Assembly: GCA_013398955.1 (NCBI GenBank)
Contig: VWPU01017436.1
Span: 1-64,000 of the forward strand
Direction of reading: 5' to 3'
Origin: Callaeas wilsoni
Lineage: Eukaryota > Chordata > Aves > Passeriformes > Callaeidae
Length of the DNA stretch: 64,000 nucleotides
The notes beneath the pieces are model-generated. The model had not been told where the DNA came from. It worked only from the letters and a program-made list of their open reading frames with translations, and did no database searches. Position numbers and translations under genes: made by a program. Every line of letters starts with the position of its first letter. The first letter of the stretch is position 1. Positions 16,394-44,251 of the stretch are shown here, piece after piece.

Positions 16394-16458
16394 CCTTTAG
16401 ACAAAAAAATTGCCAGCAGAGATCTGTTCTGTTACTTAAAGTTTTGTCACTAAGCTTT
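16394..16458 (+). pseudogene. STK31: Possible STK31 Tudor exon remnant (weak)
   Basis: After the acceptor TTAATTGTAG the sequence reads PLDKKIAS, comparable to the human NLDPNKIYGG segment. In another frame it then reads QQRSVLLLKVLSLS, comparable to DQCWYRCKVLKIIS. A frame change is needed. Its position just upstream of the clear Tudor exon supports it, but identity is low. Confidence 0.3.
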
Positions 16459-16629
16459 TAGATGCCAGTGTAAGGGATTTCTCTCAGTTCCTTCCTCTGA
16501 AGGGCATCTGGCCTTAGTGTGGAAGATTCTGATCTCTGCAGCATATTTATATTCTAGTAGTTGTCAGTGCACATTTCTGTAGGAGGTTTGCACAATCTCT
16601 ACTGATTTGTATGTTATCTTATTAATCAG

Positions 16630-16779
16630 TATCAGGTGACTGTGGAAAATCTTAAATTCTGAATAGACCAAACACATCTAAAATTCCATCAAACTCAACA
16701 ATATCCAAGTGTTGATGAGAAGTACAGTCTCTGAGCACTACAGATACCAGCTGATCTGAACTTAAACGTGTGTGACCAG
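16630..16779 (+). pseudogene. STK31: STK31 Tudor-domain exon, broken by two stops and a +1 insertion
   Basis: After the acceptor AATCAG the frame reads GDCGKS*ILNRPNTSKIPS, matching human IDYGNTEILNRSDIVEIPL; the Tudor DYG core is now DCG and Glu has become TAA (16653-16655). An extra A near 16698 shifts the frame to QYPSVDEKYSL*ALQIPAD and then LNVCDQ, matching human QFSSVAKKYKLWGLHIPSD and then the segment ending QFDQ; the conserved Trp is TGA (16732-16734). A consensus GTGAGT donor follows at 16780, exactly where a junction after FDQ would lie. Length is 150 nt, one more than the inferred ancestral 149. Confidence 0.85.
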
Positions 16780-18217
16780 GTGAGTAAAAAATTTTAAAGC
16801 ATTTAGATGATAGGACATGTAGCAGATGTTTGCAAATACCAGCACAGTGTTCTCTGGAGAAGTTGTCTGTTTAACTGAAAGCAGGGCAGTCTGGGAAGGA
16901 CCGTCTGATCTGTTGCCATGAACATACTCTAGAAATTAAATGGTTTTGTCAAAAATGGTTCAAGTTGTGCTGGTGAAGTGGTTTTTAGAGTATGATTTGC
17001 CTCAGGTCTATTTCTATCTGACCCAAGTTCTTTCTAGCGCCAAGGAAACAAAGCACCTCTGCTTCTTCCCCTTCTGAGGAAAAAAAATACCTCCTTTGGT
17101 CGCAGAACCTGCAATAAATTCACCTGCACCTGTGAGCTGCTTGAATGCCTGGGTGCTGTGCAAACTTTTGGTCAAAAGAGAGACTAGCAGGTGGGAATAG
17201 GAACCCTGTTGTTCCTGGCCAGCACTGAACATGAAAGGCTCAGGGGCTGATGCCAACACGGCTTGAAAAAGCTTTGGGCCCTTCTGAGGTGCACTGGTGA
17301 CTCTTGGACAAGTTCTGCTAATGCCAGTCTCCGTTTCTGGGACACCTTTCACAGTGATCATAGCATGCCTCCTCAGGGATTGGCACTGGCACTGCTCGTG
17401 CTGCACTAGCCCGTGGCCTGGGACCAGCTTGCCTTGTCTATCCTTCTATCATACAGAAGAGGTTCCAAGAACCCTTGTGCATGGCCTCATCCCTGTGGTC
17501 CTATTGACACTGCAAAATGTGATTACTTAAAACAGATTAATATCTGTTGTCTGTTCCCTGGAGTTTTTTGTTGGCTTTTTTTTCTGCTTTCTTCCCCCCA
17601 CTCGTCTTTAATAGTTTTTATTGCTTGAGCTACCTTTTTATTTGCTTGCTCTGTGTAGCTTTCCAGACCCTACACCTTCCACTCTTAGTTTCCAGCAAAA
17701 CAAGTTTGTTTTCAGAAGTGATATGGCAATAAGAGAAAAACCCTGTTAATAAAAGATTAATTTCTCCCAGATATCCTGCAAAGGTCTTGAGTGCATTCCT
17801 CAATCTTTCAAAACCTTTTTTCTTTGATATTATGACGAAACTGGTAGCTGCTAATTCTGGCCTTTCCCGATTTCTAAATGAATAGTTTCAGCAAACACTC
17901 TGACTGAGTAGCTGCCAGCTCAGGGAATCAGAATTTTACTGGAAACCATATATTTGGCCCAAAGTAAGGCAGTGGAATGTCAGAGGACACTTGCTATAAG
18001 TGATCTGACCAGCTTAGTTGCTGAAATGGGGGTATATGAGAAGATGAGAGTGAGTATCTAAAATATGAATTTTAGTTCCTGTCTTTTCAGCAGCAGGTAG
18101 TACTGGTACTCAAGGGAAAGAAAATATATGTGAGTATGTGTGCATGCTATTGTCAGGAAAATTAAGCTACCAACGCCAGAGGTATATGTCCAACAAGGAG
18201 ACAGAGGAGCCCCGTTA

Positions 18218-18233
18218 CTTTATTCGAATAAAG
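18218..18233. repeat. Perfect 16-bp palindrome in LTR B
   Basis: CTTTATTCGAATAAAG is its own reverse complement. It gives an AATAAA hexamer on both strands. Confidence 0.9.
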
Positions 18234-18456
18234 GGAGAGGCCATGGGGCATCCCCCTGGGGTCTCTCAAATTTTAGAGGACGCCGCCTCCTTTTTATCCT
18301 AATTTTTCGACTGCATTTTCCCTCGCTCTTTCCCCATTGGCTGAGGTACTTGAGAGGTACAGACTTCTCGGAACGCCTAATTTCTAAGACTCCCTTCTAA
18401 TGTATACCCCCCCTTGCCTTTTTTTATTAAATTCCTATGGAATTTATGGTTCTTCT

Positions 18457-18660
18457 CATTGTTTCTTTTATCTTTTGATATTCAATTTCATTTATTATCA
18501 GACCTACAGTTTACTGACAAAGGCAAATCTCTCTTTCCATTCATCAATCAGTGGAATCCTTTCCCATTGTTTCTTTTATCTCTTAGTGCTAGTTTTTGTC
18601 TACCAGCAAGCCCACAGTTTATTTGTAAAGACAAGTCTCTCATTCCTTTCACTGTGGTGG
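18457..18660. repeat. Imperfect ~108-bp tandem duplication within LTR B
   Basis: Both units start CATTGTTTCTTTTATCT. Both contain an A(C)CTACAGTTTA or CCCACAGTTTA box and an ACAA(A)GxCAAxTCTCTxxTTCC box at the same spacing. Confidence 0.75.
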
Positions 18661-20172
18661 TGGGAATTAGGACATTAATCTATAGTAAACTGTTCATTAG
18701 TAACGTTGTTGGTTGGAGAGCTGGTTCTTCCTCATTTGATTTCCAGAGACAAATTGTTCTTATGTATCTTAATGCAAGATTTTGAAAAGAAGAAAGGGGT
18801 AGCAGCTTGTAAGTAGAGGAGAAGATACCAAAAAGCTTTGTTGAAAGTGAAGGCTGCAGGTCATTAGGCCTCTAAGCAGATTTTGCAGTGATGCTAGTTT
18901 TAGCATCTGTGTAATTTCCATAGGCTTGTCCTTGTGGCTTTTTGCAGCTATCCCCTCTTCATTTATCTCTATTAAAAACTCACTGAACACAAATGTGGAT
19001 TGTAAAAGCATACTTGCCTACCAGGGCAGACATATTATGGTGATTTAGTTGTGTGGGAATGTAACAATGTGTGCTTATATGAAATAAAGCCAGCTATCAC
19101 AGTTTGAAGCAGGCTTTAGGGGATAACGGTTTCTCTGCAACTTGTAATTACATTGACAAGAGGTGCTGCTAAGTTGGCAGATACAGCTGTTGTCAGAAAT
19201 CTTTTTAAAGAGACTTGTCCTGCAGTTGCTAGGATTGCCATGGCAACAGGCTGCTGAGGAAAATGCTTGTGGGTGGGAAAAACGGTACTTGGCATTCAGA
19301 AAGTTGAGATGGTGTAAGAAGTATAATGTTCTCCAAAAAAACTTGTTTAGGATTTGCTAATGTTCCATAATTTGAGCTTTTGGAATATGTTAATGAATTA
19401 CCTGAGGGCACACTCTTCCACATACCAGCATAGTATCCAATTCTGGTTTAAAGTTAGATCATTTAGACAAGTCTGTGCTGTTAACAAATATTAATATAAA
19501 ATGACATGCTTTTCAAAATTGTCTAAATTTATAGTAAAATGCCTCATATTGAATAATTTTGATACTCTGATCAGCCCTGTTTTTTGAGTTACAGTTGTGC
19601 TGTGAATCTGATTTTAAAAAAAGGAAGAGGGTTTTTTGTTTTTTTGGCACACATGTTGAGATACTTTGATGTACAAAGCTGTCCTGACTGGCCTGAGCAG
19701 GCGGCAGCCAGCAGATTCTCTGTTCCATTTCTGTACTTTTTGCACATCACAGGCATTTTCGGGGTAGCATACCTGAGGAGGAAACAAGCTAGGATGTAAC
19801 CAAAGCCATGCAGGGGAGGGTGGAGTTGATGTGGGGTGTAGTGGAGCTTTGGGAGTGTGTAGTATTGTCACAGTGCTCAGAGGTAGACTGCTTCACAACA
19901 CCCATTTTTGTTACAGAAACAGCTTTTAGGGTAGACATCCCAAACACTAACCCTAATGTGCTTTGGCTTATTTAGTAGATGGGAGATTTGAGCTACGATG
20001 GACCTTGACTTTCCCAGGTTTTGTATCGTAAGTGTATCTTGTAAAATATAAATGTATTGTAAGATGATTTTTGAATAAAAAAGAGTTTTGAGTTAGTGAC
20101 TGGGAAAACACAAAGGGTTTTCTGTAAACTGTGTATTTTTTAGATTAATTATTCTTAATTTATTTTTAAAAG

Positions 20173-20340
20173 GAAAAGATGCTAGCTTCTACCTCAGTGC
20201 CAGACACCACATTGGCACAAACAAGAACAGATCAGAAGCTGTCCAAAGAGAAACAAGTTCTCAGAAGGGAGAGTGTAACTCTTTTGCAGAGGCAGAAGGA
20301 ACTAGAACTGCAGGTTCAAGAGCTGAAATGTAAACTTGAG
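20173..20340 (+). pseudogene. STK31: STK31 coiled-coil exon, still open
   Basis: There are 56 open codons between a TTTTTAAAAG acceptor and a GAG|GTGTGT donor. The part TRTDQKLSKEKQVLRRESVT followed by KELELQVQELKCKLE aligns with human IKQDQKLIEENEKLKTEKDA and ALELKVEQIAQELQQEK. The heptad-like Leu spacing fits the coiled coil. No lesion is visible. Confidence 0.85.
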
Positions 20341-20731
20341 GTGTGTGGAAAGGCAAAGTGGACACTCCTCACTGCGAGCGTTTCTGACAATACTTCTATC
20401 TGATGGGCTCATCGTACCGCAGCTCAGCTATGGAGTGCTGTTTGGAATACAGAAGGATTAAGCTGGTTGAGTGAACACCTGCCTTGCCCTGGTTGAGGAG
20501 ATGCTGTCGCTGTGCTAGCACGAGTTTTGCAGTCCAGGTTGAACCCCAGCTCCCCTTGGTGTATGTGCTGCCCTGCCACCACACTCGATGCAGCTTCTGG
20601 TTTGGGTCTAGGTGTTCAGTTTGACCATGGAATCACTTTGCGATTAAAAATGTGCTTTGTGTGTAAGGATGCAATCTTTGCCGGGTTTTATTTTTTTTTC
20701 CTCTACATAAAAGGAAAAACAGATTTCTGTG

Positions 20732-20737
20732 TGTTTG
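20732..20737 (+). repeat. Target site duplication of LTR C, left copy (right copy 21208-21213)
   Basis: TGTTTG lies immediately outside both LTR ends. Confidence 0.88.
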
Positions 20738-21207
20738 TGTAGAAGAATGGCTCTCTGAGCAAGGAGATACAGAGCAAAGCTACGTGCACAACCCAGGTTT
20801 CAGTAATTGTTGAGCAGTTTCTCAGGGAAAATGGATACTGAAAGCAGTTTCTCACGGGAGCTGCTCATTGGAATGTGCACAACCTAGGCCTCAGCAACCT
20901 TGATTATCCTGAATAAGCAAGAAAGAAGAAACAAAGTCACTGGTAGGAAAGTAACAAGACGGGAAGACAGGATGAGAAAACAGGAGCATGTAACCACCAG
21001 AAAAGACTAGAGAAAAAGCATGATTGTTTAGCTAGAGCCAATCCGCATTAATTATTATACGCGTGATAATAGCTATTATCCAATCATAAGTTGCTAAGTG
21101 GCTGGTGAACAAGCTAACTAATGTATATAACCAGGCCTATAATAATCAATAAAGAGAGTTCCACCAATAACTCTATGAGTACGTGTTCATCCCGGCAACT
21201 CTCCACA
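20738..21207 (+). mobile_element. Solo LTR C of an endogenous retrovirus (470 bp)
   Basis: It starts TGTAGAAGAATGG and ends CAACTCTCCACA. It is flanked by a perfect 6-bp duplication TGTTTG at 20732-20737 and 21208-21213. It contains a TATATAA box (21124-21130) and AATAAA (21148-21153) in + orientation. A 6-bp duplication fits class II (ERVK-like) elements. No internal retroviral sequence flanks it. Confidence 0.88.
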
Positions 21208-22739
21208 TGTTTGGCTAAAAATTCCTAAGCATTACAGAATCATAGCAGCTGTGGAATTTTAGAGTATTTCCTTAACTGCTGCCTTATAAAAAGGATGCTT
21301 TTGTTTCTTCCTGGCATTATCTGAGAGGCACAGTACGTACTAATAGTTACTGATATGGTTACAAAGGCCATGAATGGTTTTAAGTGTGATAAACAGCAGA
21401 GATATGAAGAGATTGTGTGAAAAGATGTTATGTTGCATGAATTCAGAAAAATGTACAAGCAACAGATATGAAAGGAAAATCTGCCATTGTGTAAATCCCT
21501 TTGACATCCCCCAAACCTGAACTTGCACACAGCTGTTTCTTTTTCTTGCAGACTAAAACTAGTCATAACCAGCTTTGTTACTTGCTTAGCTTTTCCTAGA
21601 GCATCTATGTTTCTAGATAAACCAGAGTGTCATTGCGTGGATCCTCCATCCACTGAAGATGTGATGTTTGTGCACTTCTATGAAAACTAAATTTCCACAG
21701 AACACAGCTAAGAAAAAATATTTGAATGTAAGGAAATCTAATATGCAGTCTGATGATTTTTTTAAAAGACTGTTTTCTACAAATTTTAATTACTATTTTG
21801 TGTTGAATGCAAGTAAATTACTTTGAAAGAAAAGGTTGTGGATATTTTCTTAAGTGAGAAAATATTTGCTCACTGCTAAAACCACTTGGTAGGCAATGAT
21901 TTATTTGAGAAGGGTGATTTGTGGTGATGGTGGCTTTGAGGGGTACTTAAAAAAAAGTGCCTTCATAAGATTTTGGATGCACATCTGAAGGTACAAAATT
22001 ATTTAAATCCTCCTTTTTTTTTTTGTTTGTTTGTCTGTTGGTGTTCTTGGTTTTGTTTTTTGTTTTATTATCATATAAGTGAGTCTGAAAAGCTAACAAC
22101 ATTAAAAGACTCATTCAATACCTAAAGAGGACTTTATAAAAACATATCTGTGGATTAGGAGCAAAAGTTTTTAAATTTAGGTTGCCCCCTTAAGACATAC
22201 AGCCCCACGTGGTGTTTGAGCTTTTTTTGAGGTCAAGAATATTTCTTATTTTGTCTCAAGAATATTCCTCATAGGAAAGTCAGGCTGGCTGTACATAGAG
22301 GGAGAGTTTTGCTGCACTGCTTTGAGGTCTGGCAATGATGGGAGTGAGGAGTTTAATGAGGCCCTGGACTTGATATGCCTGAACTAATGGGTAGGAATTT
22401 TCAGCTGCAGAAGAAAACATTACATGTTTTCTGGAGACTTGCTAGCAAATGGGGAGTAGTTGGAGAAAAGCAGTACCGAAACGAGAGGAAGGAAATTAAC
22501 CGTTAAACTTTACAAAGCTATTAAAGAAAATAAAATTATTCCCATTGGTTTCTATGTCTTTCTAGGCATTTTGTTAGTGTTTTGAGGAGGGCCGGCTCTG
22601 TGTGTGTTTATCTCCAGTTTTCAAAAGTCTAAACTGTGGTCTGTGTGTTAGTAGTGCTGGCTGGCTGTTGTGACTCTTGATGGATCTTTCCCTGGCTTTG
22701 TTGAAACATTGCTCCAAAAATGATAAATAATTCATAGAG

Positions 22740-22849
22740 AATGAAGCATCTAAGAAAACTGCTGAAAGCTTTGAACGAACCCTACATACTTACATTAAAA
22801 TAAAAATGAGAAGTTTGGCTCTTAGGGTGAAAGCATTGAAAAAAGCTAG
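22740..22849 (+). pseudogene. STK31: STK31 coiled-coil exon, open
   Basis: The stretch reads NEASKKTAESFERTLHTYIK and then MRSLALRVKALKKAR, matching human LEYTLKTYIDTRMKNLAAKM and EILKEMR. The acceptor is CATAGAG. The donor AG|GTATAT leaves phase 2. It continues in phase from the 20173-20340 exon. No stop or frameshift is seen. Confidence 0.85.
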
Positions 22850-25588
22850 GTATATTTTTTTCTAAAATAGAACTATTAATCATTGTCTTGCTTATCTCTT
22901 GAAGGCATACCTGCTTTATTTGTTTCCCAGAAGTTCCATTTTCTTAATTTTCTAAGAAAAATGTAGTGTTTTATGTATGGAGAGGGGAGTATTTCCCAAA
23001 AGCATGTCTGAAACCTGATTATTTTGGCAGCTCATTTTGGAATTTGCATTATCTGCCTCTCAATGCTTATCAGATGACTTCGGTTCCCTTCTGCCCCTTT
23101 ACTAGAAGAGCTTTCAATTCCATCTCCAAGGAAGATGCTAATTAGTAAATGCATCTAGTTGCTAGAAGTAACTGGGTAGTCAGAGTTCCTTGGGTGTTTG
23201 TATTGCTGTGAGAGGTGTATCTCTTTGGGTAGCCCAAATTACATCTCTAGCTTTAAAAGAATAGGCAAAAGTGCAGTGGGAAGAGACTTGAAATAGAAGT
23301 GACCACCAGCTCCTTTAAGAGGGCAAGTGTATATTGGTATGTGTGTGTGTGAAAGATGAGTTAAAAAAATACCAACAGAGGAAATAAGACAAAAGGGAAA
23401 TTAGGAGCAGGAGGGAATTGCCCAGTACAGCCTGGTCAATACTGAGATATAATGAATGTATTTTTGGTCCTTCCACAGTCCTTAAAAAAAAAAAAAATTA
23501 ACAGCTGAATGAGACATTGCTCCTCCTACCTTTCGAAAGAAACTAAATTATTAATGTGGCAGGTGTTATCTAAAAATCTGTATGTTCAAGGGGCCTGAAT
23601 AGAGTTAATTTTTAAACTGCTTAGGTTGGGGGAAAAAAAATCCTGGTAAAATGTTGTTTCCTCTTTACAACTTAGGCCACAAATAAGAACAGTCATTTTG
23701 GGGAGCAGCTCTCACAAGCCACAAAAGTGGTTACAGAAGTTTGTCTCACTGTTCTGTGTTCTTTGGAATAATTGCGGAAAACTTGGACAGAGTATGACTT
23801 AACTCAAAAGAGGATTCAATTATGCAGAAATGTAGTATGTTGGAATTATTTTTGTCTTAGAAACCAGAATTTAACAGTTATTGACGCAGTATTTTAGTTT
23901 TCTAAGCATAGCCGGACAGAATCAGCACAGCATGAAAGCATCTGTCCTGTGCTAGATAACATGAAAGGCTCTGCTACCTTTGTCACATCCGATGTACTTG
24001 TGGAGTTTTACTTTTTGTGTGTGTTAAACCTAGACTTTTTGACACCCTCGCTTTTGTAAAGAAACACAAGGAAATCAGAACATGGTAACGAAAAGGTTTC
24101 TGTTCGGTAAGAGTTAAAAACCTCTTCAGCTGTGCAGCTTCAGTGCCTGTCTTCAAAGGCAGAATGTCGGCACTGAGCGTGTGCTCCCCTCCCGCGGGGG
24201 CGCGGGCCGGGGGAGCGGGCTGGGAATGCGGTGCTACGGGAAGATGGGTTTGGCCAGGGGGAAGCTGCCATCTAGTGCAGCTTCTCTGGAGCCACAGAGC
24301 TGAGGAAACCCGCCTGCATGTGCTGGCACAGCTGTGTGGTAAGGATGGGGATGTGCTGCTTTTGGGAGCCGGGTGGTTCCCTGGTCCGTGGCAGGCGACG
24401 TGGAAAGGCAGGGAAGGGATGGCAGCTGTGCATCTGGGACAGTGACAGCAAGTACCTTGTGGCTATTTTCAAGTATAACCTAAACCACTTTAAATGTGTT
24501 TGCTTAAGAAGCTTTGCTGTTTTATACTGAGTCAGATTAGAAAATAATGAGCTACAAGGAGAACCCAAGTTAAGTTCTGTTTTTGTTGCTTGAGAAGGGA
24601 AAACATCTAGAGCATGGCATGCATTTGATTGCTGTTGGAGAAAAGAAATAATTTTGTTTGCTAAGTCCCAATTTCAATGTTTAAACTTGATACGGTAAGT
24701 GTTAATAAGCAGGTGCATTTTTAGTGTTGCATCCTGTATGGGGGAGTAGTGTGTAGAAGAATAGCTAGGTTGTGAGACAGGGCTATTTAGGGACTGACGT
24801 TCACAGACTTTACTGATCCCATGTGAAACAGCAGCAATTGCAGTTTTCTGGAGATCACAGGGCTGATTGAGCTCAGTGGGGTCCATAAGCCATGTTAAAC
24901 AGCAGCCCAAAAGTAGAGCAAAGCTGTCTTGGAACTTGTTTTCACTCCATTGTCCAGTTTGGTTTTGACTCAGTTGGGTTGGAGATAAAGGGAAAGAAAA
25001 CTATTAATGTGGACCTGATGCCTTAGGATTTTAGCTTTTATGTTTTCGTATATTTGTAATCCTGCAATTTTTTAGTGCATAACTCTGAACTCCATATAGA
25101 GTGTTAGCAACTGCTTTTCCCATTTTTGTCAGACACAACAATTCCTCTCTAGGCCTGAGAATCAAGGACACCTCACTGTCACAGGCCCTAAGAAAGGTAA
25201 ACAAAAGTGGGTTGGGGGGGAGCAAACTAAGAGAATGGGACTGTACTGCCTGAAGCTGTAACTGGACAATTAACCTCTGATGTGCAAATGGACAAATCTT
25301 ATATCTGTCCAAAAAACGTGTGACTGTCATCCATCTCGGGTGTAGTCTCTGTGAGACTCCTGCACTGCCCAAGGTGTGCCCTGTGAAGGCCTTTAATAAA
25401 TACCTACCCTTTATCCTTTCACTCTTTCCAGCCTGTTCCAGGTCAGTCTCTACAGGGCCTCAGACCAGAGCTGGAGCAGATGCAGATCCAGTGGTGAGAC
25501 TGGGGAGTCTCAAAGGCATTCATTTGATAGAGGAGAGAGTTTCTTTGGTGCTGTTCTGATGACAGTGTGTCTGAGGTGTGGGTTTTTG

Positions 25589-25613
25589 TTTTTTTTTTTT
25601 TTTTTTTTTTTTT
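25589..25613. repeat. Poly-T run, 25 bases
   Basis: It is an uninterrupted T25 preceded by T5-G. It could be a simple repeat or the poly-A tail of a minus-strand retrocopy. The adjoining minus-strand sequence has no gene I can identify. Confidence 0.9.
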
Positions 25614-29039: not shown

Positions 29040-29053
29040 TGTGTGTGTGTGTA
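29040..29053. repeat. (TG)n microsatellite
   Basis: Seven TG units in a pseudogene intron. Confidence 0.85.
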
Positions 29054-29917: not shown

Positions 29918-30040
29918 GAAGAAACAGATGAATTGATTATCAAGTGAGATGGGGTGCAGCAGAACTTGTATTCAGCAGTGACAGAACTAATTTTGGAAGT
30001 GGATCAACCGCCCCTCTCTGAGCATTCAAGAGTGTTACAG
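29918..30040 (+). pseudogene. STK31: STK31 exon with in-frame TGA
   Basis: There are 41 codons between the acceptor TCTGCATAG and the donor CAG|GTGAGG. The sequence reads EETDELIIK*DGVQQNLY, then TELILEVDQPPLSEHSRVLQ; human has EGNILIAQRNEMQQKLY, then EDFILEVDESSLNKRLKTLQ. The stop (29945-29947) lines up with a human Arg, consistent with a CGA-to-TGA change. Exon ends and length agree with an intact ancestral exon. Confidence 0.9.
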
Positions 30041-32694
30041 GTGAGGAGGTTGCTCTGATCAGTATTCATTTGGAAACACTGAGAACCTGTTGAGGATGTT
30101 TCTTCTATGTGAAGCATTTTATAGTTGGAGACCCAGCAGCAGCAGATGAAGCTTTAGGTTACGCTTCCAAGTGAAACTGTGCAGCTGACACCTGTAGTTC
30201 TTAGCAGAACTTTTCGATCCTGGTCTCCTAGATGTTTTGTTTCCAGAGGCGAATTTTTATCTAGATCCCGGATTTGAGCATTAGCTTTTCTTTTATGGTA
30301 CTGTGTTTGGTGGCTAACAAGACTTCATAAAGAGCAGAATATTTAGAAGGTGAGTGTTAATGAGAGAACCTACAGTTAAAAAGCCAATGCGGTTACCCTG
30401 TAAATTGTGGTAGTGTGTTGGTTGGTTGGATTATATTCTTCCCTACCAAGAGTCTCTTTCCCTCCAAGCCAACCCAAAACCTGAAAGTAAGGATATAGAT
30501 GGGGAAATAGGCTCCATAGTGGCAGTAAGAACTTTTGCAGAGGACTTGGCCAGTAGAAATTTTACTGGCCTTTACTATTAGAAATAATTTGTTTTCTTCT
30601 CTTTTACTTCAGAAAAATGACTTCCCTTAATTTTGACTGTGCAAGTGTGTGTGGAGAGGGGAAAATTTTGCCAGTAGTTGGGCAGTTTGTCTGTACAAAT
30701 TCCAGAGATTTATTCATCCACACATATATGAGATTGCATTATTATGAATAATCACCAAGGTTGCACTCTGCACATAAGTTCATGTAAGGTTGGATCAGCA
30801 GTACTGAATTGAAGCATTCAGATTTTCATGGAATCACTTAGTTACCAATGGGGTTATTTTTCAATGCTATTCAAAAAAGCTGTGATATGCTTTTTTTTTT
30901 TTTAATAGTCTGATATACAGATCAGTATCTAATTGGAAAAGATACTGGATAGGTAGCATTCCATGGCTTTTTATTGCTGGAGGCTCTGTGAGCATCCTTC
31001 TCCTTCAGATGGAGAAAAGTTGTGGTGTGTTGTTTGTAGGATTTTTTCTGTTTTATAGTTGGTTTGGATATTTTTGTCTGTGTGTGCTTAAAGGTTATGC
31101 TGTGCAAATCCACTAGGTGGTAGGCATTAAGCATCTTCTAGCTTACTGCACAGCAGTGAAATTTTAAAAGTGTTTTGAAAATAGTTGAAGGGATACTGAA
31201 ATGCTGCTAGTAGGTGTATTGATTGAATTTTGAGCTTTAGCTTAACAATGCGGATGGCCCTCTCTTGTGTTAGGAGCTGGAATCTGCTTCTGCATCCACA
31301 TGCTGGTGAAATTGCTAGTGTTTTAGAGAACTGTGTTTATAGTATGAAAAATAAATGGGAAGAAAAGGACGTAATTACAGGATTCTTTCCTCGAGGATAG
31401 CCTGATGGAATACATGCAGATACTCTTCTGGTGTGACTGGTGCTATTATTTTTGTAAACAGAGTGTGAATATTGGATATGAAACTGTTACTGATCACTTT
31501 GCTCTATTACCCATTTTTGTCTGCTGTTAAATGGGCTGATTTTTTTCTCTCTCCTTCAGAGTGTTCCATCTGAACCTGGCTTTTACCTTGTCCTGCCATT
31601 TTCTACTCATGCGTATACTGGTGCACTGAATCCCAGCTATTCTAAAAAATGAAAAGAAATTCTGTTGAGAACTTGAATGATTTAAATTGTCTCCATAGAT
31701 ATAGCACAAACCTCTTCCTGGTACTTACTTATAGGGAAGCATATTTGTACAAAGCTCATGCCACTTGGCTCAGTTGGAAATTGCTGTTTAAACAACTGAT
31801 TGTATGGATTGAATGCTGCTCATTGTAGCAGCTATTGTTATGAAAGTAGGTTTATAATTTTTATAAAATACTGTTTGTTCTGGAATTTTTTTTGTCACTG
31901 TATTCAGTAATCATAATGTGAGGAAATTCTTATTTCTTTGACCCCAATCTGAACTTTTGCTGTGGTGTGTCTGTAGTGCCAGTTCACATTGTGGCATCGT
32001 CATGCATAGTTCTATAAAGCTGGTTAAACTCACTTCCTCACCTCTACAGTTCCTACAGCCCTCAGAAAGTGGAGGCCACTGCTCTTCCAGCCTCTGGTGG
32101 TGGTGTCAGTCATTTTACTTGGTTCTACTTGGTTGCTCTCACCTCTCCGTTTCAAGGGTCAAAAGGCTTTACATTCAGAAGCATTCCCTGGCTGCTCACC
32201 CTGTTTCTTAGTACAAATTCACTTTGTTTTCTGAATTTGTTTTATAATTTTTTTTTTGTGAGTTTAAGCAGTTGTTTGAGGAGCATTATAAATTGGACCC
32301 CATTTAGCTCTTATCCTGATGAGTATGATTTCAAAGTCCATTGGGGAGAAGCGACGAGAATACAAAAAACTTCTGTAAAACTTTTTGTGGTTATTTTTCT
32401 TCCATGCTTTCAGTTTAAAAATCAGTCAATGATCTCTGTGTGAGATTCTTTTCTGCATTGCATTTTCTAGTAGACATACTGGCACTTGATCTCATAGGAA
32501 AGTGGAATGTAAAATAAAGTAAAATTTGCTTCACTGGATATAGAAAGAGACTTTTGTAGTAAATGTAATTGTACGTCAGCAGATAGCGCTAACTTTTTCC
32601 GTGTTAAATGTATCTTGATTTTAGTGGGTCATATGTGGTCACAGAATTCATCAGGTATGCAAACCTGTTTTTGTTTGATTCACTTGACACACAG

Positions 32695-32872
32695 GAGCTG
32701 ACAGCGTCTCTGGAGATGATGTATGGTCAAGATTCTGAAGCAGATGACTCAGGAGGTATTTCAACAGTTCTTTGAGTGGAAGGGTACTAAAACAAAGAAA
32801 TTATTTTGTGTCAGAAATAATATGGACACAACTCTGCAAATTCTTGCTGACTGGTTCAGTGACATCTTAAAG
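32695..32872 (+). pseudogene. STK31: STK31 exon with a 2-nt deletion frameshift
   Basis: The frame starts ELTASLEMMYGQDSEADD (human DLSVSLEAVYGQAKEGA). From 32750 it must shift to read QEVFQQFFEWKGTKTK and NMDTTLQILADWFSDILK, matching human DEILKKFYDWKCDKRE and ETDASLHRLVAWFQRTLK. Exon length is 178 nt, against 180 for the 60 human residues, so two bases are missing near 32749. Without the shift the frame stops after VL. The acceptor is CACACAG and the donor AAG|GTAAGA. Confidence 0.9.
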
Positions 32873-35315
32873 GTAAGATGAGCAATCAGTCTTTCCTGTT
32901 GGTGAAAATGATGAACTACGACACTGTCTATCCAAGCTTGTGAGGAATAGGCATTAGCAGGGACAACCGTCTGAGGCAGGGAGATTGTGCATATGAACAA
33001 TGGCTCTAAATCTCAGTGTTTCAATGCAGAGGGAAAGGTAATTCATTGAGGAACAGAGTGTTAATTTTCCTTTTTTCTTGGTGCAGTAAACTGGAGTTTA
33101 TACAAAAGATGTCCTCTCAAAAGAAAACACAGATGTCACTTTTATGCAAGTATAATTTTGGGTGTGCTCTTCCATCCTGGTTGTGTGACTGAAATGCTTT
33201 AATTAGTCCTTTCAAGTGGCCTTTGGCTAGAAAGATTTCAGATTTTAAAAGATTCTAGTTCAAAAATGTTGCTGAAGGTGATGATTAAAAATTACTGTAA
33301 AGAGCAGCCAATCTGACTGGATGTGGTATAGGTATAGGCTGCAGACAAGTATATAATAGATTTTCTTCCTCATTGAAATACTGAGTATGGGGAATTTATA
33401 CAAATAAAGTGCACACCATTCTGCAATAGCATTCTGATGCTCTGTCTCAGTCTGAGTTGTAGGAGGTTTGGAGCAATGAAGTTGGGTGCAGGTTATTTGT
33501 CTTAAAAGGAAATGGATGGTGCAACTGGATTACCATTCACTGAGTTCTGCTTGTGAAGAAAGCACAGACTAGGGGGGTAACTTTGAGACTTTCCTATCTC
33601 TGTGCTTAATATCTATGTTTTTACTCAGTTTAGGATTCAATCTTCCTGGAAAGACTGCCAGCTGCTCCTTCTCCATTCCTGCAGGCCCAACTTCCTCGAT
33701 CTCCTTCTTGTCACTATTGCAGGCAAATGTTCTGTTTGTGTCAGCACAACCTCCCTGCCCATGTGAGTTGTATATAATCACAAGAGTTGTGCCCTGTCAC
33801 AGTGAATAAGTTTCCTGCTCTTGCATTTCATTGTACCCAGAGCACTTGCTGTAGCCAGATGCAGCAGTTTAGACTTGGTGCATGTCATGTGGAGTATAAT
33901 GTTAATGAATATAATTACTTACATCTGTTTATAATCATGTTGATTATTAGAGGGGGCAAACAAACATGCACGTGGGTTTCTGTGATTGCAATTCAGAGTG
34001 GTATTCTGCATGTAGAAGCATGGCTGGAGTTTGTTAGTAAAGTGACAACTTTGGTTTATCTATTTGAAATCTGAACTTTTCTGCAAAATCTTTATAGGTA
34101 CAGGAAATATACAGAAATTCAGTATGGATCGGTAGGGCACTGGTTGGTATATCAAGGAAGAAATTTTCATTTATCCTTCTTTGTCACTTCAACTTTTGCT
34201 ATGCAATTTTTCTGTTGCAATTTAACTTCTACCTCCTTTAAAAAAAGGGTGAGCGATTGTGTAGAGAAAATGCTTCTTTGAAGTGTTTCCCTTCTCTTTA
34301 TTTTAAATACATACCCCTCTTCCTCTCTTTCTGAATCAGAATTAATCTACTGTAGCATCTATGAGAATCTATACAGTAGGAAATGTGTCAGTGACAGACA
34401 AGGAAATTTTCAGAGCCTTGAAACATGACTTCTTTCCAGCATGTGTCTCCAGGCTTTTGAGAGCAACACTGTTTGAACTCGCTGTTCAAGTTTTTATTTT
34501 TAGTTCCTTTAAGCTTAAGACAGTAAAACATTTTCACAATATTTAGTGGAATACACAAGTCTGATAGGTAAATGAACAAGGTGGGGTTTGCAGGTTTCTC
34601 TTATGTCTGTGTATCTTGCGTGTTAAATACAGGACCAGGTTTCTATTTTAGTTTTGGTTGCCAGTGTCATATCTCTTCTTCTGCAGATATGAGCAATAAA
34701 ACTTCACTACAAACAATATTCAGTGCAATTATAAGCTGATCTTACTGATTTTTCTTTGACCCATTCTGCATTTTATATCTTGAAGTTATTTCTGACTTTT
34801 ATGAAAGTACTTAGGGTTTCCTGGTGAAATCTTTAACCTCACACCACACTTGATAAACCGTGTGGTAGATCCCAGGACTGTCTTCATCTCAGGCAGTACC
34901 ATATAGGAATGGAAATCTTGTGTATCGTTGTGTGGGCAGCACATGTTGATTTTTTACATGAAACTCAGTAGGAGAGGGATTTTGATTCTTTTACTGTTTC
35001 ATATTTTGATAAAAAGCAAAATGAGATTAGGAAAATAAAACCCAGTCAAGGGAATAATTAACTTTATTTTTGCCTGGTGAATCTCAAATCTGTTAGTTCT
35101 AGAAATTGTTCTATTACTCAAGTGTGAAGTGAGATCTGACACAAATCCTGATTATATTTCCAGTAGGTCTAACTCTTTGCATTTCTTGCTTGTTTCTGCT
35201 GTCTGATTGCTAGCTTCTTATTTTCAATTGCAAGGCTGATTTCTTGGGTGAGTTTGGGTTTTTTTTCCTTTTCTATTCTTTGACATGTTGTAACCTGATG
35301 CCATAAGCATCTTCA

Positions 35316-35363
35316 GATTCAGAGGAAGTGGTTTGCCGTGGGGATGAAATTCTTGAGTTGACT
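35316..35363 (+). pseudogene. STK31: Possible STK31 exon fragment (weak)
   Basis: After a CATCTTCA(G) acceptor-like end it reads DSEEVVCRGDEILELT and then TAA. Human has SEDAMDNIDEILEKT in the position expected between the flanking exons. The shared SE and DEILE residues are suggestive, but the piece is short. Confidence 0.4.
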
Positions 35364-36142
35364 TAACTAAGAAATACTGGGAAAACTGGTTCTTCCCTCT
35401 CTATGTGCTGAGAAGCTTTCTCTGAGCTTTACCAAATTTTTGTGCATGTGCTGAAAATGCAGGTGAAAATTCTGTTTGAAATAATGGGATCGCCTCTCTG
35501 GGTCCATGTGTATGCATACATTTACTTTTTCTGGTCTTAAGAGATTACTAATTCCTCATCACTTTCATTTTGCATGGGGCAAGTGCTCTTGCCTTACTGG
35601 TACTCTTCTTCTGTGCTGATGTTAGCCTTTTTCTCAGTTATTTACGTTTTCCAATAAGCATTTCCTCCATTCTCTTTTGCTCACTCTGAGGTACTTGCAT
35701 TGTCTCTGCAATGAGAGTCCCTGCTGTGCCAGAGAATGGCCCTTTCAGTAAACGTTGCACCTGTCCTTTGATGTAGCATCATACTAACAAAAAACCCAGG
35801 AGTTTAGCCTGCTTGTGACTGCTCTTGGTGATAGAATCAATGACTCTCACTGCTTGTGTGCTTTAATGTTCCATATCCATTTAACTGTGCTAGCCTTAGA
35901 AAAACCTCTTTAGTAGCATGTGGTTTATGAAATTGGACTTCTGCATAGAAGTACCAGGCAGTTTTATTCTATTGAATCTCTTGGATGAACTCTTAGACTT
36001 GCTAACTTCTCTTTTATAATCTCTATAGGAAGAGAGAGAAAAATCTGATAAAAGAATTTTTCCATTAACAATGGAATTTGTCAGTAAAGGTTTTATGTCT
36101 TAGATGTTGGTGTGTATAAATGAAGAATGACTCTCGATCTTT

Positions 36143-36161
36143 ACTCTCTCTCTCTCTCTCT
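36143..36161. repeat. (CT)n microsatellite at a splice acceptor
   Basis: About nine CT units lie directly in front of the AACTCAG acceptor of the 36169 exon remnant. Confidence 0.9.
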
Positions 36162-36168
36162 AACTCAG

Positions 36169-36243
36169 TCCAGGAGCATGATGAAGCACTATGAGCAAAG
36201 CATGATCACTGTCATACACAACAGATACTTGGCCAGTGTTGAG
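36169..36243 (+). pseudogene. STK31: STK31 exon remnant, 25 open codons
   Basis: It ends QSMITVIHNRYLASVE before a GTGAGT donor, matching human ERLIATVQAKYKDSIE. Its acceptor is TAACTCAG, preceded by a (CT)9 microsatellite that acts as the polypyrimidine tract. Confidence 0.7.
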
Positions 36244-36340
36244 GTGAGTTTATGCCTTATTTACTTCTGTCACACTGATCTATGCAGGTAACCCTTTATG
36301 ATACAATTTATTTTTGATAAATGTCCTTTTATCTTTTTAG

Positions 36341-36370
36341 AAGAAAATTCTAGGAGAATATTGGTGATGA
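36341..36370 (+). pseudogene. STK31: Start of the next STK31 exon, running into two stops
   Basis: A good acceptor (TTATCTTTTTAG) is followed by KKILGEYW and then TGA TGA. Human has KKQLIEYLNK directly after the DSIE-F junction, so position and K-K-x-L-x-E-Y agree. Beyond the stops no homology is seen. Confidence 0.5.
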
Positions 36371-37231
36371 GAGGTTAGTTGGGTTAAAGCTTTAGAATCC
36401 CAGTGGTACATTGCCCTACTCAATGCTTCATTTCATACATTTAAATACAAAGATACTTTCTTAAAAAATGAAGCAGTGAAAGCTGGAATCTCTAGATTCG
36501 TGACAAATCAGTAGTATGTAGCTTAAGGAGATTGAGCTTTAAGTAGAATGTTGGTTTTTCAGAATATTGTTAATGTAATTAAAAAGAAACACAATAAAAA
36601 CCCTCTTTTGTGGGAAGTACCCTGAAAAGCTGAGTTCAAACAGGCTCCAGGCTGTTTCTTTAATGCATTTGAGTAAAACATTAAATATAGAAAGATTTAA
36701 CAATTTCTGATTTTTTTCTTTTCCTCCTAGTTCAAAAAACCAGGCAGAGGAATGACTGAATAGAAGACATGTTATTAACAACTTATTATCTGTTAAGAAA
36801 ACTGTGAAAAACTTAAAGGTGGAAGCTGTTTGACAAGAACAATTTTGAGAAAGTATGAAAATGTTATAGTGTTGGTAATTTTGTCTGTTAGGAAACATTA
36901 ATTTTGTTTACTCCAAGTAAGCTGTAACCATGTAGAACAGTTTGTTTTTTCTGAATTCAGTTTTGCCTTTAAATGTGTCAGTTTTACAGGCCCCTGAGAC
37001 CAAGCTTGAATGGTTTAAAAATCAAAAAACCGTCACTAACCAATCATCAAGAAAAAAAGAGAAATACATAGACTTTCCTGTTTCCATCTCCAGCCATGAC
37101 ACGGTGCTTTTAACTAATTCCCTCTGGTGACAGGTGCTGTTCACAGCATGAACAATTTTGTCCAACTCTTTCTACTGTGCCAATTGCTTTTAACTTTGTT
37201 GATAACGTGTATATCTTCTCCTTGGTGACAG

Positions 37232-37292
37232 AAGTCAACGTCTGTTCCAATTTTCAGGGTTCCCCACTATTCCTCAGAGAGGTTTAAAGAAG
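37232..37292 (+). pseudogene. STK31: STK31 kinase-domain exon remnant
   Basis: Between a CCTTGGTGACAG acceptor and an AAG|GTAAAT donor it reads KSTSVPIFRVPHYSSERFKE, comparable to human KSDPMAYLMVPYYPRANLNA, the hinge region of the kinase-like domain. Twenty codons are open. Confidence 0.6.
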
Positions 37293-40062
37293 GTAAATAC
37301 TATTTCAGCTTTGCTGCTGTTGGTTTGATTGCACAATAATTATTCTAATGATGATGCTTAAGGAAAAAAAGAACCTGGACATTTGCCTCTGAGCGTTGTA
37401 AAGGGGCAGTAAGCTCCCAAGAGGGATTTAAAATGAGATGCACTAAGGAAACCTATTGGGAAAAGAATTCTTGAGTAACAAGGTGACATGAAGAAAATGC
37501 CTGCTTGTGGGAGAAAAAAGTGAATGAATTATGGAACCTGGTGTCGGTGGTAGATTAGTGATGTTGCTGTTACTTTTATATGTGATCAGCTAATTAAAAT
37601 AAATTAAAAAAAGCTCTTTGACTTGGGAAACAAGTAGGCAAAAGGCTAGAACATTTGGCTTGTCACATAAATAAAGGGAACACCTTTCTCAGTGATTAAG
37701 TTTTCAGAGATTCTCTTGGGTTTCCAGGAAGGAGATTGAGTAAAATACGTGTTTGAGAATATATTCAACTCCAGAACTGTTATATGGAAGCTGTTTTTAA
37801 ATCCTGATAGAGTAGATTGCTGTTGCTTGGTATAATAGCAGAATGAGAATTATACACAGACTTTGCTATTCCTAATGCAGTCTGATGATTACAGCGATTT
37901 TGAAATTACATTAAAAAAACCTTCCTCTTAACGTAAAATTCAATTCCAACTGTCATAGACAGGGAATTGTACTACTTGTTGGCAGCTGAGTTTCCTGAAG
38001 GGTCATTCTGGAGACAAATGGTGTAATTGTGAGAAGTATGAGAGCTGAGGAAGATTTTACCCCTCCCTGGTGGTATGGGCTGTGCTGAAATGAGCACCTC
38101 AGGTGACAGAGCAGGAAAGTTTCACCCATGGTTCCCAGACTGGATCAGGTTTGTGCCTCCTCTGTAACTGTGTCAGTACTGCTCAGTGCTCCTACTTTCT
38201 GCATGATCACAAAAGGATGGAGCTGGTGACTGATGTGCTACCAAGGACTCCTACCAACCTGCAAACTAGTCTCCTCCAGTCTGGCCAGAGCTGGCGCTGG
38301 CTGCCCTCATGGAAGGGGATAGAAACTCAGGGTCTGGCTTTTATTTTGACAGTAGACAGTCCCAAAATATGTTGTGAACCAGGAAGGGGGCAGCAACTAG
38401 TAACAGGTAAAAAGCAGAAAGGCAGAGAAGAAAAAATAGGCAACCTGGCAGAACTAAAGTTCTTCAAAACAGCACTGAATGTCTTTTTATATTTATAATT
38501 TTTTTTAAAATTTGAGAAGTTTTGCAGTTTGTATTCTTTGCTACCTTATGAGCTTTAATAGTTTCTTAGTGCACTGTATGCCAGGGAGGAAAAAGCAGCC
38601 TACTTTCCTGCATTAGGAGGACAGCACCTCCTCCACCTTCTTATTGTCTTCTGGCACTGTATTGCTGCCCCCCCAACTCGGGAAAGCTCCCAAATTTGAA
38701 AAGCCACAAGCTACCCAGCAAGTGCTCATGTTCCCATGCAGAGACTTTGCATGAGCAATTAATATATTTGAACTGGTTCGCTGAGTACCAGCTGTAGCTC
38801 CAGGTATGTGGGCAGATCTTGGGAAATACTGGCAGTTCCATTATCTCTACAGTGATGGCTTCAGTAAAGCCTCTTGTGCTGTCATAGTTTCACAACAATT
38901 CCTAACAGAGATGTGAACTGCTAGTTGATGGGTAACCACTGTCGGTTACCTGTACCGAGAAGATGAAGCTGATACATATAAAAGTCACTTTTCATTGTCT
39001 TTTATTCCCCATTTAGAGAGCAGTTGCTTAAAATTAAGTAATTTTTCTATTTGCATGAATGAATGATGAAATAGATTAACTAAAGTGTAGCTTGATAGCA
39101 TACATGTTTATGAATTATTAACATGGTAGGATTTAGTTAGAACACTTTTGCTACCATTATTCAGATCTTGCTCTGTTCTAGAGGGTTTTTCACATAGAAG
39201 TGAGGACAAAAGAAAATGTAAAAAACCCCACCAAAACCAACCAAAAAACCTCAGAAGAAACAAATGCAGTTGTACAAATGATTGATTCTTCTTGAAGAGA
39301 ATATCTGGGGTGCAGCAAGATAGGCATTCGAGTACCTCATCCAAGTTCACCAGGTGAATTTCAGACTGCTTCACATGTAACTAATGTTCAGTTCAGACTT
39401 GGTGTTGCATTGATTATTTGATGGAAAATTCTTAGTATTGTGTTCAGCAGTTGCCAGTTTGATGTTGAGCATCTGAAATTGTGTTCTCTCTTATTTCATA
39501 GCAGTGCCATTTCAAAAATGGAGATGGTGATTTTCCGAGTTCTCTGCTGATCTGTGTCCCAAGAGCCCAGCACTGACATAACACGTTTCCTTTTGCTGTC
39601 TATGTAATCTCTCAGAACACAGGCATTTTCAGCCTAACCTGCAGGCAGTGTCTGAAAAATGCTGTACTCATACCTGCTTCTAGGCAATAGTGAAAACTGG
39701 GGAGATTTTACTTGGTTTATGAGTACGAAGTTCACATTTGAGTGTGCTTGCTCCTCAACATTTCTTTAACATACAACTTGGGCAGGGGCTTTTCAGTCAT
39801 ATTTTTAAAAGTCTATTTCTTTTGACCTGTAGAAGTTTCTTCTGACATTATTTTTTTCCTCTTGTTTCTGTGTAAGGGAAACTTGAGCCCCTTGCATATT
39901 TTACCCTACTGTAAAATTAGAAAAGAATCTTTCCTTGCCATTTTTTAATATCAATCCATTTTCATTTGGAACCCGAAGAATCTCCTTGACTGATGTTTAG
40001 TTTTGTTAAACTAAAGGGGAAAACCCACCAGTGTTATGTATTAGATATCTTTTCATTTACAG
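37293..40062. other. Spacer where STK31 catalytic-loop and activation-segment exons should lie
   Basis: No convincing copy of the human HGSLHQNN or VGDFDF motifs was found. Two weak look-alikes (near 37889 and 39516) were judged to be chance. Confidence 0.5.
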
Positions 40063-40128
40063 CTTTGCATACAAAACCAGGAATTTGGCATAAATGATGA
40101 TGGAACACATGAGGTAGATGTTGTCATG
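40063..40128 (+). pseudogene. STK31: STK31 kinase C-lobe exon, open
   Basis: There are 22 codons, LCIQNQEFGINDDGTHEVDV and two more, against human LSVQNQEFEINKDGIPKVDQ. The acceptor is TTCATTTACAG and the donor ATG|GTATGA. It joins in phase 0 to the last exon, which begins DDKVKSLL in both species. Confidence 0.88.
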
Positions 40129-43100
40129 GTATGACAATTGTCAGATGAGGAAGAAAAGACTGTTCTTGTTTAGAGGTGGTTGGTTGGATTTTAAAGTGAA
40201 ATATTTCATATGAAGTGCTGGGCTGAGAAAATGTTCTTAATTGACTATTTCCATAATTCTAGATAGCCTGCACAAATAGAACAATGATTGAGGAGGTAGA
40301 AAGCCCCAGAGTTTTCTTAATATTTAACTCAGATCTCAGAAGGAGCAACTAAAAATTGAATGATACAGTGTTATGGACTTGGAGAACAAGTCATTGAGAT
40401 TCAGCCTCAGAGGAGGTATTTGTATTTAGAAACTTATTTTTTCTGAAGTCAGGAAGTTGACTTTTTTCATCTGTTTTACTGCACAATGACTGCACCGTGT
40501 TTGAGCATTAATAAAACAGCTAAATTCAATTTTAATCACATAAATGCAGTTGAAAAATTGTACTGTGCCCTTAATTCTTTGGTTTGGTTTTCTTTTTTTG
40601 TGCAGCAAGTTTTCCTATGCCTCTGAAACCAATCTACAGATATAAGTGAACCCTTCATGATACAAATTGTTGTTGCTGTTTTCATTCTTTCTACTCTCAG
40701 CTGTTATTCTCTGCCTGCCTTATGGCAGCAATTGGTGTCTTCTTGAAATCCATGTGCAGACCCTTTTCTGAAGTTTATCCTTGCCCAGGGTCTCAGTGAC
40801 TATTTGGGAATAAGAAGCAGATCTGTGCACCTTCATGCTTCACAATTTGGCTCACCAACTTTGAAGTCAATCTTCACTAACTTTACTTTCTCTTGGATGC
40901 TGATCATGAGCACATAATTTTATAGCCTCATATCTCTGCATTCTTTACCTGGCTGCCTGTCTTTCCTCAGGTTCATTTTCTCATGTAACTATTTTCTAAA
41001 ATCTTTCAGTCTTCTGGCCAAGAGTGAAGACCAAATAATAAATCCCTCTTTCTTAGTTATACCTGTGTATTAATGATCTACCAGCTTTACAGAGATGACT
41101 GTTTAAGCATAGGGCTAAATTACAAGAGTTGTGTTCATTATGATCTTCATGTATCCTGTTTACTGTGTTTAGGATAAGAAACTGGCATTATACAGTAGCA
41201 GGCCAACACAGCTGTAGTGGCTCCAGTGTCCTGGTAGGGTAATTTGTGTATCACTTCATATCACATATACAGTACTGTAAATAATCTTGTTTTATTACAT
41301 GACTTCCCTACAGTACGTCTTTTAATAGCTTCACTTCAACCGTTCTCTGCACTGGTGAAAGAATTTTTGATAATGCAGAGGACTCTCTACCAAATCCTTC
41401 TGCAAAATTATTTCCAATGGGACACTACCATGGAAAACAGAAAAATAAAACACGCAGCATTTGAGCAGGGAGGTTGTCCTGTAAATAGTGTATCTTACTG
41501 CTCATTATAGTTGATGGATTTCTTTTATTAAAAATTAAGTGAATCTCATGAAACACACAATACTATAGGAAAGAAGATTCAGCACTTCGTGACTGAACAT
41601 CAGGGCCAGCTAGGGCATTTTAAATGTGTTTCACAAAACTTGTACAGAACCATCTGCCCAGAGCAGCGTTCAGGATTGTGCATAATAATCCTTGGATACT
41701 AAAACCCCCTAACTTTCTCTCATGCCTGAGGGAAACTTACTTCAAGGATGTAGAAAAGATTTCTTGGGACATTAAAACTAGTTGCTTCACTTCTGCTTTC
41801 TGTAAAATTTCTGCTGTGATAACGTTTTATAAATAAGGTCTGAAGTACGCAAGTAAAAATTTTAATGGCCAGTTTCAGGGTATTATACTTCTCTGTTCTC
41901 CTGTAACAGGTGCCCTCTGTGCAAAGAGCTGCTCTTATCTCAAGAACCATTAATGAATTTAGCTGGTATTGTTTTTAGCAGGGATTAGTAAGTTTTACAG
42001 CTATTAATAAGACCAAATTTCTTTGACATTTTTTACCTGATGAAAATAAGCATTTGATTTTGATTTTGTCAGGTGATACAATACTAATCAATACAGCACT
42101 GCTGTCAGTTTTTAAGGGTTCATTCTGGATGTGTATACATGCACGTGCCCTAACCACTAAAGTCAACTAGAAAACAATCTGTGCTGCCTGCAGAGCACAG
42201 AAATACAGATGAGAGTTTTACTAAGAACTGTAATACTAATAAATATCTTTCAGCTGTTTCTTGGGGAATCTTTTAGACCTCTGGCTGTTAATCCTTGTCC
42301 CAGTTCTTGGGGAAAATCTATTTTGCTTCAAAGTGCTTTATCTATAATCAGCTTATTTGGAATTAATCTCCATGCCCATCTGCAGGCTCCTGACAGACTG
42401 GTAATTTCCTTTCCATTTCAATCTCGTGCCCAGAGGAATTGCACACTTGTAACTAGTAAAATTTTTGTTGTTTTCAGCAAATGTAAAATTGCCGCAGGAA
42501 AATAACATAAGGCTTTAAAACAGGGATGTTAATGTTAGGTGACTGCAGCAAGAGCAAGGTTTAGCAGTAAGATCTTGCAGCCACTCATTTAGTCACACCA
42601 GGATTTAATGTTCAGTCTGCTTCAGCATCCAGTTTTGTGTATTTAAAAAAAAATAAAAAAGCAAGTAAGATCAAACACAATGAAATGGAGTAAACACGAT
42701 GAAATGTTGTCCTATAGCCGTATTCCTTGTAGAATCAATTTTTGGTTTCCTTAATGTGAGAAGGGGATATTTGTTGTTGACAGACATTTGACAGTATCTT
42801 GAAATGCAAATACGCAAAGCTGTTCAAGCTCTTCAAATGCCCACATTTTCTTCACTTTAATTTTAAGTGTGTAGTCATGGTTCACTCCTGTATTTCTTTG
42901 CATGTATTTGGATCCTCTTAGCTAGAGATTCTCCTTTGAGTATTTAAAATATTTTATAAATATTGAACAATGCTTTATGCCTGCAAGATCCACAGTTTTC
43001 AGATCTCATCTTTTAACCCAGATTTCTGGTTACTTGGGGAGTGACTAATTCTCTGGGGTCACTCTAATAATTAGTGAAAGAGTTGGAAATTTTTTGTTTT

Positions 43101-43975
43101 TCTCTTCAAGTTTTTGACTAGTTGTGTACAATCCCTTACATCATATCCTTCTCTATGGGTGAAATAGTGATGGGTGAGAGATGTGCAGTTGTCCTGTACT
43201 TTGCTGTTAATATTGACCCAGGTCAGAGGAGTTCCTGGCTTGGAGATTGTGAACAAGCAAGCCTTCCTATGGAAAAATTCTGTTCCTGTTGAGTTTTGGT
43301 AATCTAGGTTTCTAGATCAGCCTTTGAGATTGTGTTTCTTGTAGTCCTCTTATCCAAATCCAGTGTGTGCCCTTCCTCCTCAACAGCTGATGTTTATGCA
43401 TATGTGTGGAGTTGTGGATTTATGTTTTGTGTATGGAGTCTAGTGCTGTTAATGTGCTAAGTATTTAGGCATGTAATCCCTTCTGATAAACCCAAAGAGC
43501 CTAAGTGTAAGTGATGGTTTAATAGCAAAATAGCTGCTGTTGATTTAGAGTCCATTACTTTGGGGTTTTTTTTCCCCTATACTCCTGTAGAGAGATAAAA
43601 CTATACTCCAAAATTAAAAGATAAAGTTATAGAAGGTGAATGGCACCTGTTTCATTCATCCTCAGTAAAAAGACCAACTTGAGTATTTCTGTAATTTATA
43701 GTAGTTCAGCGAATTCATATTTCAAAATTTCAAAACCTCACACTCTTCTGGCTGGCATTGAGTTGACCGACCCGGTGCTGAACATTTGCTTGTATTTTGT
43801 TTTAATGAGCACTATGATGTTAAGTGTTGCTGTCTATTGGGAATGCTATGGTACAACACCTTGTGAAGGCTTTAGGCCCTAAACACTTACAAGATGTGTT
43901 CATCAAATGCTTGGTTGTTATTTGTAATCCAGTTTGTTTTGCTTACTGATGAAATCCTTCTCCCTCTGTTTGTAG

Positions 43976-44251
43976 GATGATAAAGTTAAATCTCTTCTCC
44001 TGAATTTGTTATGCTGTAACAGACCGATGCCTGAGCAGGTGCTGAGGAATGATTGCTTCCTCATAGCTGATGCGATTCCAGTTTCACTGCAACCAGGTGA
44101 AGAGTATGAGCCACATAAAAAACAAAATTCTGAGAAAACACATTGGAAAAAAGTGATTAACCGAGGAGAATGGAGCAATTCCTATTCAATACATGAAAAC
44201 TTTTCCATCAGGTGTTTGTTTGAGCCTTCTGTTTTGAAATCAGTGACCTGA
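43976..44251 (+). pseudogene. STK31: STK31 last exon, 91 open codons
   Basis: After the acceptor CTCTGTTTGTAG it reads DDKVKSLLLNLLCCNRPMPE and then QVLRNDCFL, against human DDKVKSLLCSLICYRSSMTA, EQVLNAECFL. The middle part (GEEYEPHKKQ) still resembles human TEYTLYKKEE. The tail after about codon 50 is unlike the human end and stops at TGA 44249-44251. There is no lesion in this exon, so it could persist in a non-coding or truncated transcript. Confidence 0.88.

Follow-up and report, generated by a model that had tools for sequence, protein, structure and literature searches.

The window, the first 64,000 bases of an 83,360-base Callaeas wilsoni contig (VWPU01017436.1, assembly GCA_013398955.1), contains STK31 (TDRD8) at its ancestral locus in the genome of an oscine passerine. 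We hold with high confidence that this locus is a unitary pseudogene, inactivated and decaying without detectable constraint on the protein as a whole. Introns and the ancestral position are retained, several exons carry lesions, no further copy was found in the assembly, and selection on the encoded protein is relaxed or absent. A functional STK31 gene should show a continuous reading frame with Tudor and kinase domains; the locus instead has six in-frame stops, four frameshifts and no clear kinase core. This songbird appears to live without STK31.

Remnants and lesions at the STK31 locus

A profile built from 97 bird STK31 proteins gave 14 matches of at least 7 bits on the + strand, collinear over positions 14710-44158, and its best match on the - strand scored -0.2 bits. 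In the control, 20 dinucleotide shuffles, the best match reached 3.5 bits and none of the 20 held a match of at least 7 bits. The 13 best matches of a mammalian STK31 profile were likewise all on the + strand and collinear, and tblastn with human STK31 gave matches below an E value of 0.05 that were collinear and in the same order as those of the mammalian profile. A frameshift-aware alignment resolved the locus into 14 collinear + strand remnants, termed A to N, which span 14713-44189 downstream of an intact FAM221A gene and comprise 541 aligned codons with 73% identity to the bird consensus. Matches and remnants do not correspond one to one, as the profile hit remnant I in two separate segments. 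Remnant B scored 2.8 bits with the bird profile, which is inside the range of the shuffles; being weak alone, it rests on its position between A and C. The identity of the locus was established by searching the read-through of the remnants against 5.8 billion proteins, a search that covered proteins of about 488 amino acids or more. The best 120 of 164 matches were all named STK31 or serine/threonine kinase 31, the best with an E value of 2e-131. An initial model-generated reading of the window, made from its letters alone (the sequence-only reading), had described at least eight remnants in order, on the expected strand and beside FAM221A. That arrangement stands, with 14 remnants, but the start that it gave, 16394, moves upstream to about 14.7 kb.

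The Tudor part is represented by three remnants. Remnant A (14713-14832, profile positions 18-57) has a donor GT at 14818, and the 5′ part of its exon is unrecognizable. It is followed by B (15836-15877, profile 52-65) and by C (16638-16794, profile 84-134), which corresponds to the end of the Tudor part and carries stops at 16653 and 16732 and a frameshift near 16695. Further downstream, D (17908-17964, profile 231-249) retains its donor GT, E (20170-20340, profile 249-305) is open with splice sites retained, and F (22737-22850, profile 307-344) is also open. Remnant G (23679-23834, profile 346-397) is interrupted by a stop at 23769, H (29918-30040, profile 398-438) by a stop at 29945, and I (32692-32875, profile 438-499) by a frameshift near 32752; H and I both keep an acceptor AG and a donor GT. 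A stop at 35304 lies in J (35280-35357, profile 497-522), whose 3′ part is missing. The donor GT is retained in K (36187-36246, profile 559-578), and L (36735-36849, profile 579-620) has a stop at 36753 and a frameshift near 36816. In the interval where the kinase core is expected (36850-40056, profile 621-885) there is no clear remnant, only a short piece near 37.9 kb with a borderline score. The end of the kinase part reappears as M (40057-40131, profile 886-910), with acceptor AG and donor GT retained, and the last coding part as N (43976-44189, profile 911-982), which keeps its acceptor AG and has a frameshift near 44156.

The ten frame-breaking lesions, of which the frameshifts can move by a few bases with the alignment, are thus spread over seven of the 14 remnants, namely C, G, H, I, J, L and N, more than the stops or frameshifts in at least three exons that had been claimed earlier. 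By-eye inspection of the splice sites found AG at the acceptor place, or no more than a few bases from it, in E, G, H, I, L, M and N, and GT similarly close to the donor place in A, D, E, F, G, H, I, K and M. At two other acceptors, those expected before 15839 (B) and near 35286 (J), the same inspection found no AG, and both are apparently lost.

Several segments of the gene have no clear remnant. For profile stretches 1-17, 66-83, 135-230 and about 523-558, the scores in the expected gaps were within the range of 20 shuffles. The kinase-core stretch (621-885) scored 19.9, compared with a maximum of 19.1 in its 20 shuffles and 17.7 in the reverse complement; the short piece behind this score may be a faint trace of the core. 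Pfam places the Tudor domain of the pelican STK31 protein at residues 7-124 and a kinase match at residues 772-908. On that protein the Tudor part corresponds to the broken remnants A to C, and the post-Tudor stretch and almost the whole kinase part are without clear remnant. The absence of several exons, also part of the sequence-only reading, agrees with the lack of clear remnants in these segments.

Might the gene be functional, and these lesions no more than errors of sequencing or assembly? The intact frame of FAM221A on the same contig, set beside ten lesions in seven STK31 remnants, makes this unlikely. The window sequence contains no N, near-invariant sites of the protein are changed, and there is no clear kinase core. 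We accordingly give such errors almost no weight.

A 91-bp direct repeat is also present in this region, as two copies within 18453-18651 that are 71% alike and have a start-to-start spacing of 108 bp.

Constraint on the remnants

In place of the ratio of non-synonymous to synonymous substitution rates, we applied a site-conservation test to proteins, with other birds represented by their protein sequences. Changes in a protein under constraint concentrate at variable sites, and the extent to which variability predicts change can be expressed as an area under the curve (AUC). For STK31 of the window the AUC was 0.519 (bootstrap 0.464-0.578), compared with 0.671-0.888 (mean 0.779) in the 97 bird STK31 proteins. 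Near-invariant columns were changed in 31 of 103 cases, and the 97 other birds average 0.66 such changes with a maximum of five. FAM221A, the control from the same window, gave an AUC of 0.804 (against 14 non-passerine rows). With all 145 mismatches unconstrained, 8.3 stops would be expected, and six were observed; arithmetic with end points of 0.779 and 0.5 puts the share of changes under constraint at approximately 7% (upper bound approximately 28%). The STK31 protein as a whole is decaying without detectable constraint, with amino-acid changes falling on conserved and variable sites alike. The earlier description of the locus as decaying agrees with this neutral overall result, although less sharply in the middle exons.

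It is in these middle exons that the evidence fits less well. Decay is uneven, with identities of 61% in A-D, 79% in E-I and 73% in J-N. This unevenness is not significant over the 14 remnants (p = 0.13), and reaches p = 0.0015 over the three groups, a grouping that was chosen after seeing the data. The AUC was 0.449 for A-D, 0.572 for E-I (0.469-0.667) and 0.572 for J-N; a value as low as that of E-I occurs in two of 74 Neoaves rows, and values as low as those of A-D and J-N occur in none. Furthermore, four remnants (D, E, G and I) match the consensus roughly as closely as an average protein of the 97-bird set does. A later loss, or one that is partial and touches the middle part, is therefore conceivable, even with nine of the 35 near-invariant columns changed there.

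The same exons bear on the proposal that part of the locus still has a product, be it a truncated protein or a functional non-coding RNA. Two of the remnants, E and F, are open, many splice sites are retained, and the E-I segment has its elevated identity (with the post hoc p value given above) and an AUC somewhat over one half. However, each of G, H and I carries a stop or a frameshift, and nine of the 35 near-invariant E-I columns are changed, compared with a maximum of five of 103 over the whole length in other birds. A search of Rfam returned no match at the gathering threshold. We regard a residual product of this kind as improbable, and favour a pseudogene over the whole locus.

Genomic position and the search for another copy

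FAM221A occupies positions 196-8310 on the + strand, in seven coding exons (196-251, 1799-1972, 2443-2633, 4673-4879, 5696-5794, 6442-6530 and 8248-8310). Its frame of 292 codons is open, with splice sites, and lies approximately 6.4 kb upstream of the STK31 remnants. Stretches of the gene are 48-93% identical to human FAM221A, and the best database row, from Vidua, is 95% identical. Intron 6 begins with a GC donor (GCAAGT, 6531-6536) in place of GT, and the frame is unbroken. In a FAM221A tree of 23 rows, comprising the window and 22 rows picked from the best 120 of 450 matches and rooted for drawing only, the window groups with seven oscine rows (support 100/98), and the suboscine Manacus comes next (97/91). 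This grouping indicates that the window is from an oscine passerine, or songbird.

The STK31 remnants lie downstream of FAM221A and both are on the + strand, as expected of the ancestral locus; on chicken chromosome 2 the order is reported as FAM221A, STK31, NPY (PMC11507135). A human NPY query found no NPY in the window or in the remainder of the 83-kb contig. The introns and many splice signals that are retained argue for the ancestral locus and against a processed copy, and the introns between remnants, together with the position beside FAM221A, bear out what had been proposed from the sequence alone. A duplicated or processed pseudogene with an intact parent elsewhere would be at odds with both features, and no parent was found in the assembly. 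This origin is very unlikely.

To look for a parent or a second gene we searched the assembly from which the window derives (1.0 Gb in 12,470 contigs). Pelican STK31 gave nine matches, seven at the locus and two elsewhere (26% and 30% identity). Cockatoo STK31, with E values up to 1, gave 13, of which nine were at the locus and four elsewhere (26-27%, on three contigs, C3160 and C10113 among them). A Columba FAM221A control matched only at its locus, where five of its seven exons were found. One outside match of pelican STK31 (L007) is a kinase at 26% that, by alignment, looks like a paralogue; another (L008) contains three or more Tudor-like repeats (29-31%) and also looks like a paralogue on this basis. 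Hence the pelican and cockatoo queries found no functional second STK31 in the 1.0-Gb assembly, only weak matches of 26-30%, and the claim that the only copy has been lost survives the check most able to overturn it. The gene at L008 (contig C2655, around 32.5 kb) has its Tudor-like repeats inside an open frame of 2311 codons.

A working STK31 could nevertheless survive in another part of the genome. One candidate is the germline-restricted chromosome, which assemblies made from somatic tissue do not include. Such a chromosome is described as likely in all songbirds (PMC10387091). Its annotation in the nightingale is reported to have used flycatcher protein-coding genes as queries (PMC10387091), and a gene missing from the flycatcher set would escape it. 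The main text of that paper, as distinct from its supplements, contains no word starting with STK or Tudor; moreover, we found no open-access paper that names both STK31 and the germline-restricted chromosome, and no direct support for a germline copy. We assign this explanation little probability, and retain loss of the sole STK31 gene as the preferred one.

Extent of the loss in birds and comparison with known systems

The database rows matched by the remnant read-through are clusters at 90% identity, and their taxa were judged from representative names. By this measure the best 120 of 164 matches comprise 116 birds and four reptiles, several of them marked partial or low quality. The bird groups among the matches listed are ratites, fowl, ducks, doves, cuckoos, swifts, hummingbirds, cranes, shorebirds, penguins, pelicans, storks, raptors, owls, woodpeckers, seriemas and parrots, the last with six rows from six genera. 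STK31 is therefore near-full-length in many bird orders. For this reason, and because STK31 is listed among genes expressed in the oocytes of chicken (PMC9570461), loss in birds at large was rejected. No passerine is found among the 116 bird rows. By contrast, passerine rows are common for FAM221A, with nine among the best 120 of 450 matches and 184 member sequences. The last of the best 120 is a gharial row, and an intact STK31 from a passerine would be expected to score higher than this; it is thus unlikely to be among the 44 matches ranked lower.

From this distribution we infer that the loss is common to passerines, and we place it, probably, early in passerine history. A passerine neutral rate of approximately 2-3.3 per 10^9 per site per year, combined with 27% changed residues, gives tens of millions of years, a loose figure on which we do not lean. 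Falcons (Falconiformes) are also without STK31 among the matches listed, where parrots and seriemas are present; clustering, lower-ranked rows or a second loss could explain this. In all three groups of layer chickens, STK31 is among the genes reported with potential loss-of-function indels (PMC4563830), a hint that loss is tolerated beyond songbirds.

Most likely, passerines ceased to need STK31 early in their history. A first disabling mutation would then have been fixed by drift, and the stops, frameshifts, lost acceptors and loss of kinase-core exons would have followed. In mouse, STK31 is described as a cytoplasmic germ-cell protein with Tudor and kinase domains that is reported to interact with MIWI, and disruption of either domain leaves mice fertile (PMC3929691), which agrees with the account of a germ-cell Tudor protein with fertile knockouts in the sequence-only reading. 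By analogy with these mutants, redundancy may make loss by drift plausible. A bolder proposal is that STK31 disappeared from the ordinary chromosomes throughout the Passeriformes roughly when the germline-restricted chromosome arose, and that the sole working copy is now there. For cpeb1, a gene of that chromosome, divergence early in the evolution of passerines has been reported (PMC10387091). If true, a germ-cell gene would have been removed from the ordinary genome and rendered invisible to somatic assemblies and to annotation based on flycatcher genes; the proposal is a long shot.

Loss of STK31 without replacement, which we prefer, provides a natural songbird knockout beside parrots that have kept the gene, and hence a comparative test of the role of STK31. 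The same comparison would test whether peculiarities of the passerine germ line, such as the germline-restricted chromosome, accompany the loss. No report of songbird STK31 loss was found in open-access full texts, a search that did not cover subscription papers, preprints or supplements.

Avian STK33 offers a precedent for the songbird locus. STK33, a unitary pseudogene of neognaths, is likewise a serine/threonine kinase gene with degenerate remnants, lost exons, indels and stops, and has a possible role in spermatogenesis (PMC4509753). The two differ in extent: STK33 is reported as degenerate in all 28 neognaths analysed (PMC4509753), whereas STK31 is near-full-length in many neognath orders and broken in this oscine passerine. 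Bird STK31 genes (pelican P0121 and chicken P0221) share segment order with the window, and the chicken gene is reported to have the same neighbours as well. However, the pelican and chicken proteins (990 and 1007 amino acids) have Pfam matches to Tudor and kinase domains, and in the window neither domain is whole. A further parallel is with the mouse Stk31 mutants, in which, as in the window, the Tudor or kinase part is lost. Those mutants are engineered in the laboratory and reported to be fertile (PMC3929691), whereas the loss seen in the songbird is natural.

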